Below, piece after piece: positions 10,693 through 14,038 of a stretch of DNA of 23,447 nucleotides (the stretch's first letter is position 1; every line of letters starts with the position of its first letter). The stretch is from Cochliopodium minus. Its lineage: Eukaryota > Discosea > Himatismenida > Cochliopodiidae. Below the pieces are notes generated by a model. The model was not told where the DNA came from and made no database searches. It saw only the letters and a program-made list of their open reading frames with translations. The DNA lies in the NCBI GenBank assembly GCA_024220525.1, contig JAMYWO010000028.1, positions 109,522 through 132,968 on the forward strand. Reading direction: 5' to 3'. Made by a program: the position numbers and the translations under genes.

Positions 10693-12218
10693 TCATTTAT
10701 TGATATTCCAAACGATTATAGATTTATCATCACTCGCACTTGCAATCTCATATTCTTCTAGAAAATTATATAGACAACATCTCACCCAAGCATCATGTCC
10801 TTCAAGTTTTCTCTTGGGTTCTCCTTTCTGCACATCCCAAATGATTATGGAATGATCCTTACCAGAACTAATAATTTCGTTTTCATTTTTTGGATTGTAA
10901 GATACAAAAGAGACAATGTCAGAATGTCCCAACAATTTTTTTTTTATTTTGGCATAGCCCACATTCCAAATTATAACAAATTTATCTGAACCAGCCGTCA
11001 CCAATTCGTTTCCGTGTTTAGGATTCCAGGAAATGGACCAGACAATTCCTTCATGACCTTGTAATTTGTTTTTGATGGTTCCTTTTTCGACATCCCAAAT
11101 GATTATTGTTTTGTCGAAGCTTCCACTTGCTATTTCGTTTTTATCAAAAGGATTAAATGCAACAGACCTTGTAATGAGAATTAAATTAAAATAATAAATT
11201 AATTGATAAAATAAAAAATAAATTTGATGATTTTGTTTACCATACTCCGCTGTCATGTCCTAAAAATAATTTGTGTAATTTTTCGTTTTGAACATCCCAC
11301 AATGTGACTGTCTTGTCATGGTTTCCTGTCAAAATTTGATTCTCATTGTGAGGATTGTAAACCATTGCATTTATAGGTTTTCCATATAAAATAAGCTTTT
11401 CATTTTTCCCACTCTTGATATCCCAAATAATTATAGATCCATCGTAGCTTCCACTAAATTTTTTAATAAGTTTTTAAAAATGAATAAAATTATTTGAAAG
11501 ATAAAATACCTAGCTAATTCATGCAACTTATTAGGATTATAAGCAATTGTTTGAACAGGTTTGTCATGACCTAACATTATAATTTTTTTGTGAAAAAAAT
11601 TGAAATTTAAACCTTTTTATTCACCTTTTAATATTAATTTTTGTGTTCCTTTTTCAATGTCCCAAATTATTATTGTCAAATCATCACTCGATGAAGCCAA
11701 TTCGTGTCTATTATTAGGATTGAATGCTACGCAAGTTATTGATTCTGTATGTCCATTCAAGATGTTCTTAATTTTGCAAAATCTTTTAAATTCTTGATAT
11801 GTAATTCTATCATCTTTATTAGAATCACATGCTCTGAACATTTTTTCAATAAATCTGATATATTTTGTTAAATTAATGATTCAAATTGAAATTTCAATTT
11901 GAATCATTAATTTTAATTTCTTCATCTCCTTTATCATTGATATCAATCTCTCCATTATTTTTGGAAATTTGAAACAATTCCTTTTTAAAATTTATTTCTC
12001 CATTATTTTTGGAAATTATTCAACAAAGCTTTACCTTTCCAAATTTAATCCACTCCTTTCTATCAAGATATCCAGACTTATCTTTATCAAATCTTGTAAT
12101 ATTTTCTTTGATTTTTAAAGAAAGAATAAATTATACTAAAAAATTACTTTTTGAAGACTTTCTTTATTTTCTTTGTTTTATTTGGATCTTCAATTATTTT
12201 CTCCAATGAATTTCCCAT
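10693..12218 (-). CDS. EF-hand and WD40 repeat protein, frame broken by a palindromic insertion
   Basis: Exons: 12218-12148, 12092-12035, 11980-11625, 11570-11510, 11453-11241, 11167-10693. With 34 nt (11872-11905) left out of exon 3, every junction is in phase and the protein is 399 residues. EF-hand 1 has a canonical loop, DKDKSGYLDRKE (residues 26-37). EF-hand 2 has the loop DSNKDDRITYQE (84-95). Seven WD40 repeats follow, each with a GH-type start (one is GK) and an IIIWD, VTLWD or IIVWN end. The protein probably links a calcium signal to a propeller scaffold. As sequenced, translation would hit a TGA inside the palindrome after about 71 residues. No GT donor exists between 11941 and 11862, so a conventional intron cannot remove the insertion. 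The repeats are very alike, which suggests recent internal duplication. The partner and pathway are unknown. Confidence 0.72.
11871..11912. repeat. Perfect 42-bp inverted repeat (28-bp core flanked by ATTAAT)
   Basis: Arms of 21 nt meet with no loop. The core (11878-11905) consists of GATTCAAATTGAAA followed by its exact reverse complement. It is flanked on both sides by ATTAAT (11872-11877 and 11906-11911). It lies inside coding exon 3 of the EF-hand/WD40 gene. Confidence 0.95.
11949..12017. repeat. 21-bp direct repeat, one copy in exon and one in intron
   Basis: An identical 21-nt sequence beginning TCTCCATTATTTTTGGAAA occurs at 11949-11969 (coding, within exon 3 of the EF-hand/WD40 gene) and 11997-12017 (in the preceding intron). 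The offset is 48 nt. Confidence 0.9.
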
Positions 12219-12643: not shown

Positions 12644-14038
12644 ATGTCGATTTTATATTCTTCTCTTTCGAATATGAGTGGATTGATAGATGATGAAGGG
12701 AATTTATATTTTTGGGGAGACAATTCCAGCAAAACTTTTGAAAATGAACCCAAATATATAGAAACTCCAAAGATATTCCACAAGAACATAAAATCTGTTG
12801 TGATGGGAAGAAGCTGTTATTTTGCAACACAAAATGGTTTCAAAAATAAAAATTTATAATTAATTTCTCACTAGTATAATTAAATATCAAAACTTGAAAA
12901 TCAATAATATTAAAAATGAGATCTCATTCTCCTAAATTTATCATAATCATGAAAATTAATTTTTTTTAAAAGATGGGAAAATGATATTTGGTGGGAAATT
13001 TTTTTACATCAATACACCACTTTCAAAATTTGATATTAGTCTGAACAAACTGAAAATAAAAAGTATGGTGGCAAGTTACGATTTTGCAATCTTCCAAACA
13101 GAAGAAGGACAAATCTACAAAGTGGGAACGATAAACAAAAATACAGGAGAAAAATTAAGTTTAATAGAAGGTTTGCCCATGGATATCATCAACATGTGTG
13201 TTACTTATCAATGTGCTTGTTTCCTCACTTCTTCTAAAAAACTCTTTGTTCATGGAAGTATTGACGCAATTGATTTGGGAGGAGGAACATTTGAGATAAC
13301 TGATGTCGATGAACCTTTTGAGATCATTTCTTGTTCTTATGATTCTATTTTCTTTGTAACGTAAAAAAAAAAAAAATTTGATTGACTAAAAAAATTTGTT
13401 AACATATTATTATTTTTCATTAATTTTTTTTTTATTAATTTTTGTTTCATTATTTTTCAAAACTCAATCTTTGATCCATTTTCTTTTAAAAAAGTTCAAA
13501 TGGAAATGCAGGCATCATTGGTTCCTTTTACAGCAAATTATTAAATAACAAATGGAAAACATCTTCCCAATTTGTAATTTCAAGATATACAGATGAAAAT
13601 AACAAAAAATTTGTAAATTGTGTTGCTGGTAATATTTGTTCAAAAAAAACCAATCTTTTTAAAAAGTATAAAATTTTTTAATTAGGAGGATATTTTGGAT
13701 TGTTTTTAACTAAAGACTCTGAAATTCATTTTTGTGGGACCAATCACTGTAAACATTCTTTTTTCTTCAAAATTTAAAAATTGAGTTTAATATTATAATG
13801 ATTTTTATTTTAGTTGGACAAGCAGGAAACAAGAGTATATTTAAACTTTATTTTTATTTATTTTTTAAAAATTTTAAAAAATTTTTACAGACTTGGACAT
13901 TGGAAAAAATTGTCTGAATAAAATTTTTCTTCCTGGAAAACTTGTTTCTTTGTCTACTTGTTTTGCTTGTATAGTTGCGAGAATTTACCTCGAAAACGAA
14001 AAGAGAGAAGCTATCTATGTATGGGGATACGGAAAAGA
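12644..14038 (+). CDS. RCC1-like beta-propeller protein, copy C (3' end missing at assembly gap)
   Basis: Exons: 12644-12836, 12973-13360, 13495-13628, 13686-13748, 13814-13834, 13891-14038; all phases agree. The start, MSILYSSLSNMSGLIDDEGN, is almost identical to copy B. Blades include LYFWGDNSS, KLFVHGSIDA, EIHFCGTNH and AIYVWGYGKE. Exon 2 covers two exons of copy B, so copy C lacks the intron at 1077-1268. The last exon ends at a GT donor (14039), after which an intron-like (TTTTTA)n tract leads to the N at 14218. The matching final blade, coiled coil or tail, if present, is lost there. Function as for copy B: a probable protein-binding propeller, partner unknown. Confidence 0.75.

Follow-up and report, generated by a model that had tools for sequence, protein, structure and literature searches.

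How does a gene that reads as sound in every other part come to hold a perfect palindrome, stop codon included, in the middle of a coding exon? The question is raised by an EF-hand/WD40 gene in a 23,447-nt stretch of Cochliopodium minus DNA (contig JAMYWO010000028.1, assembly GCA_024220525.1), hereafter the window, which is AT-rich eukaryotic DNA with a GC fraction of 0.17-0.38 in 1-kb windows. The gene runs from 12218 to 10693 on the minus strand and comprises six exons and five GT-AG introns (Table 1). Pfam profiles recognize domains on both sides of the interruption, with an EF-hand_1 match above cut-off upstream of the palindrome (E = 9e-08), WD40 (1e-10) and EF-hand_1 (1.6e-6) in exon 3 downstream of it, and 8.2e-30 for the four WD40 stretches of exon 6; the scan covered these three parts.

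Table 1 Features of the interrupted gene, in order of transcription (window coordinates).
Feature	Position	Strand	Remarks
Exon 1	12148..12218	-	Starts MGNSLEKII; aligns with the starts of relatives in contigs C524, C53 and C152
Intron 1	12093..12147	-	55 nt, GTAATT...ACAAG
Exon 2	12035..12092	-	First EF-hand loop
Intron 2	11981..12034	-	54 nt, GTAAAG...AAAAG
Exon 3	11625..11980	-	Linker, palindrome, second EF-hand, first WD40 repeat
In-frame GT-AG pair able to remove the palindrome	11855..11975	-	121 nt; judged unlikely
Perfect palindrome	11870..11913	.	44 bp, no spacer; inside exon 3 of the minus-strand EF-hand/WD40 gene
In-frame TGA	11894..11896	-	First palindrome arm; codon 72 after splicing
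ATG close downstream of the palindrome	11839..11841	-	Possible re-start (inferred use) for the second EF-hand loop and WD40 part
Intron 3	11571..11624	-	54 nt
Exon 4	11510..11570	-	
Intron 4	11454..11509	-	56 nt
Exon 5	11241..11453	-	WD40-like by eye
Intron 5	11168..11240	-	73 nt
Exon 6	10693..11167	-	Four WD40 stretches, TGA end

Intron 2 has a peculiarity of its own. Together with the start of exon 3 (12034-11937, minus strand) it holds two copies, 48 nt apart, of a 33-nt stretch at 85% identity (family D6), including 21 consecutive identical bases; the local score of this repeat is 56, and the best of 300 mononucleotide shuffles scored 50. Since the relatives on contig C524 have no intron at this position, intron 2 may have originated by tandem duplication of exon sequence.

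The palindrome consists of two 22-nt arms that meet without a spacer. An earlier note, made from the letters of the window, had placed a perfect palindrome inside exon 3 of this gene and the end of the reading frame at a TGA within it; both points hold in the assembly, while the 28-bp palindrome with separate 6-bp flanks described there is in fact a single palindrome of 44 bp. The runner-up among spacer-free palindromes in the window measures 18 bp, and the longest in simulated windows reached 26 bp under a first-order model and 34 bp under a third-order model (n = 100 each). With the first arm taken as given, Markov models of order 0 to 5 predict the second only 0.0007 to 0.005 times per 44.65 Mb, odds that are to be weighed with the fact that the locus was chosen for its striking look. 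The palindrome thus lies beyond both the simulations and the Markov estimates, which rules out a chance origin. As RNA it is predicted to fold into a 20-bp stem with a 4-nt loop, and the 106 nt around it have a minimum free energy of -25.9 kcal/mol (z = -5.54 against 200 shuffles). Scanning the window against Rfam at the gathering score gave no match, and a tRNA scan found none.

Relatives in the same genome were used to examine the sequence on either side. A protein search of the species' own assembly returned 14 matches at E values up to 1, four of them within the gene itself; the best of the others lie on contig C524 at 41 and 38% identity, and these copies show no interruption across the region equivalent to the palindrome. 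Upstream of it, FGKELFQIS in the window gene corresponds to FGKDVFEID in the C524 relatives, and downstream FIEKMF corresponds to FVEDMF. Both flanks look like coding exon, and the relatives support an exon on either side. The spacing of the EF-hand loops is 52 residues in each of the C524 copies, while three further relatives (L046, L047 and L048) have spacings of 33, 32 and 37; in the window gene the distance is 31 plus 15, or 46 residues when the parts on the two sides are summed. The exact size of the insertion is left unfixed by this comparison of relatives.

Past the palindrome, coding resumes in a different frame. No stop interrupts it before the final TGA, the later introns fit its phase, and no further lesion was found in any of the six exons or five GT-AG introns. 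Because the introns have kept their GT-AG ends and phase and the exons are otherwise open, the break is either young or absent from the cell's DNA. We favor the former and assign a probability of about 0.58 to the palindrome being a one-off nuclear insertion, of the template-switch or break-repair type, that has made a truncating allele. A polymerase would briefly have switched to the opposite strand, or a broken end would have been repaired, and the resulting palindromic insert would have landed in the variable linker between two EF-hands of a gene that is otherwise intact. With a TGA added and the frame shifted, this copy of the gene should yield just a short N-terminal piece, perhaps joined by a re-started WD40 product. 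We infer the mutational origin of the insert, its recency and the correctness of the assembled sequence alike.

Two features that had seemed to define the insert more closely do not do so. The hexamer ATTAAT, described in the earlier note as a pair of direct repeats that might stem from a target-site duplication, is its own reverse complement and belongs to the palindrome, at both ends of which it is present; being self-complementary, it offers no independent evidence of a duplication. Among random 22-mers from sampled DNA of the same genome, 6.3% contain such a hexamer with its start within the first three bases, and the share is 16.8% when the first nine are allowed. Removal of 34 nt had likewise been said to restore the frame exactly. 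It does bring the later introns into phase, but 34 nt is not special, for 215 of the 657 start and end combinations of suitable length around the palindrome reopen the frame, and with so many cuts doing so an exact restoration is weak evidence.

The same cuts bear on how the insertion could have arisen. A perfect reverse-complement copy adjoins its source, as a template switch would leave it. Read in the frame of its adjoining flank, however, each whole arm contains a TGA, and no whole arm survives any of the 215 cuts that reopen the frame. Hence no single snap-back copied from an intact exon can produce the palindrome, and the event needs two steps, a distant template, end repair, an ancestor that was already broken, a later change, or an assembly that is wrong. 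A donor for the 14-nt half core did not turn up in the window, where the best other match has two mismatches.

The last of these routes is a reading in its own right. The palindrome may have been produced during assembly, gap closing, polishing or library construction and be absent from the DNA of the cell, which we consider doubtful but regard as a serious contender. An assembly error would likewise fit the sequence. Spacer-free palindromes are difficult for assemblers, and we counted this toward an artefact. A gene with no lesion apart from the palindrome is also what would be expected if the break were unreal, and the assembly does contain isolated single Ns, two of them in the window (2602 and 14218). 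Both Ns, however, lie far from the palindrome and inside simple repeats of the TTTTTA type, and the two flanks of the palindrome join into one coherent gene. Of the origins listed in the earlier note, an artefact of the library or assembly and a template-switch mutation stay live; the foldback insertion proposed there, with its target-site duplication, has lost its support.

How often this genome makes hairpins was gauged in a sample of 48 loci with 199,335 non-N bases. Searches supplied 38 of the loci (two on C524 overlap), and the other ten, with 85,320 non-N bases, were 10-kb stretches chosen arbitrarily. Hairpins with arms of at least 16 and loops of up to 10 numbered two in this sample, against simulated means of 0.1 at order 3 and 0.25 at order 5 (20 runs each), with two in the highest order-5 run. 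No other spacer-free palindrome longer than 22 bp occurs in these 199,335 bases of the 44.65 Mb. One locus (L060, 257-299) holds a 43-nt near-palindrome with 20-bp arms and a 3-nt loop inside what is probably an intron of a GTPase-like gene, a label resting on weak Pfam matches below cut-off; it is a candidate for another hairpin-making event. At another (L014, 346-380) a hairpin lies in AT-rich DNA that looks non-coding. The two AT-rich cases hint that mutations producing hairpins occur at a low background rate in the genome.

If instead the hairpin were removed from the RNA by a nonconventional, non-GT-AG route, or skipped by the ribosome, the full EF-hand/WD40 protein would be made. The strong predicted hairpin, the matched AAT codons at both ends of the 34-nt step and the apparent maintenance of the remainder of the gene would all suit this reading. 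Such matched ends are inherent in the palindrome, however, and the frame fit is shared by the many other cuts counted above. This is also one case only, with no further palindrome of its kind in the sampled bases. The mitochondrial inserts of Magnusiomyces capitatus go by the name of byp. In the parts of the reports available for comparison the known systems are abundant, with 81 byp inserts in one mitochondrial genome and euglenid introns in many genes. Excision at the RNA level, an option raised in the earlier note, has gained no positive support, and we hold either form of the reading to be improbable.

An ordinary intron would also leave the gene unbroken. Although the earlier note had seen no GT donor, GTTTCA at 11975 pairs in frame with an AG ending at 11855, and the 121-nt intron so defined would hold the palindrome. 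Its phases match, the frame remains open, and the same donor is apparently used by two RCC1-like genes in the window (at 12837 and 763). Splicing here would nevertheless require, next to intron 2, a microexon of 5 nt (11980-11976), would remove FQIS, the counterpart of FEID in the relatives, and would put the EF-hand loops 17 residues apart, whereas the five relatives show distances of 32, 33, 37, 52 and 52. An in-frame GT-AG pair is thus present, but it keeps neither conserved flanks nor normal exon sizes, and such an intron is very improbable.

The two genes with this donor lie at 570-790 and 12644-13364, have near-identical first exons, and both appear to use GTTTCA. Splicing from 12837 gives ...CYFATQN-DGKMIFGG with one candidate acceptor, and splicing from 763 gives ...CYFATQN-DGRIISGG with the first of three candidate acceptors. 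The RCC1-like label comes from weak Pfam matches below cut-off, tested on the 12644 copy.

Further copies were sought in the species' own assembly (44,654,751 bases in 598 contigs), in searches that pass over very common words. A 661-base query around the palindrome hit nothing beyond its own locus, on either strand. For the 17-nt half arm, no second exact copy was found in the assembly among the matches listed; with up to two mismatches it occurs at 202 and 199 places by strand, and its reversed control at 15 and 15. Composition predicts 174 to 220 places per strand (Markov orders 2 to 5), the order-5 estimate being 202 with 17 for the control. As the count equals this estimate, the near-matches reflect composition, and we rejected them as a repeat family. 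None of the one-mismatch places among the matches listed (L010-L034) contains a spacer-free palindrome longer than 22 bp, and the outer ends with a spacer of 4-34 bases were found nowhere else in the assembly. The 22-nt core TCAAATTGAAATTTCAATTTGA, allowing up to three mismatches, has 36 places including the palindrome itself (control, 1), where 16 to 27 are expected at Markov orders 2 to 5 and 44 at order 1 (control, about 1 to 2). No other place in the assembly has fewer than two mismatches to the core, the best others having two, and these places, a mild excess over orders 2 to 5, are probably ordinary AT-rich near-palindromes. The core, singled out in the earlier note for a genome search, therefore yielded no second copy, and neither did the palindrome or its ends. 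A small mobile element of foldback or MITE-like type that duplicated its target site is scarcely tenable, since its palindromic shape and the mild excess of core-like places (36 against 16 to 27) are offset by the failure of the DNA, half-arm, end-pair and core searches of the assembly to find dispersed copies, and by an apparent duplication that is inherent in the palindrome and not independent of the element.

A one-off insertion thus remains our preferred reading. If it is a real allele, the locus would be a clear case of a palindromic insertion without a spacer disabling an otherwise intact gene; as it stands, it is a new example of an already known type of mutation or of an artefact. Were the palindrome lacking from the RNA, the locus would instead reveal a novel means by which nuclear genes can put up with a hairpin insertion. 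Two cautions also follow for similar loci: the self-complementary ends of palindromes mimic target-site duplications, and a cut that reopens the frame is weak evidence wherever many cuts do so. Among the papers listed on palindromic coding inserts with template switching, none appeared to describe the same case, and we do not claim that none has been published.

Several known systems resemble this locus. In Nematomorpha, 110 inverted repeats of at least 15 bp are described in four mitochondrial genomes, with both arms coding (PMC6649704, in the part available). Like the palindrome here, these are perfect inverted repeats within protein-coding sequence, but ours is single, nuclear and carries a stop. 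The mitochondria of Magnusiomyces capitatus contain 81 palindromic inserts that are skipped in translation (PMC5009743, PMC6649704, available passages). There too a short palindromic insert disrupts the frame of a gene, although those 81 are mitochondrial and were compared with protein (PMC5009743), whereas the present case is one nuclear insert known from DNA. Euglenid nonconventional introns, as the accessible text describes them (PMC4770533), occur in many genes and were compared with mature transcripts. They share with this locus non-canonical ends, a structure joining the ends and, often, short direct repeats at the junctions, while ours is a single case known from DNA alone. The likeness to all three systems appears to be one of shape, and we claim membership in none. 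The closest known process is probably template switching, which has been proposed to generate perfect hairpins in a single event, with support from ancestral reconstruction (PMC8794818, in the sections at hand). The present palindrome is known, however, only in its present form, and each of its whole arms has an in-frame TGA. As in the mutations described there, it is a new reverse-complement repeat that pairs perfectly over tens of bases, is local and occurs in single copy.
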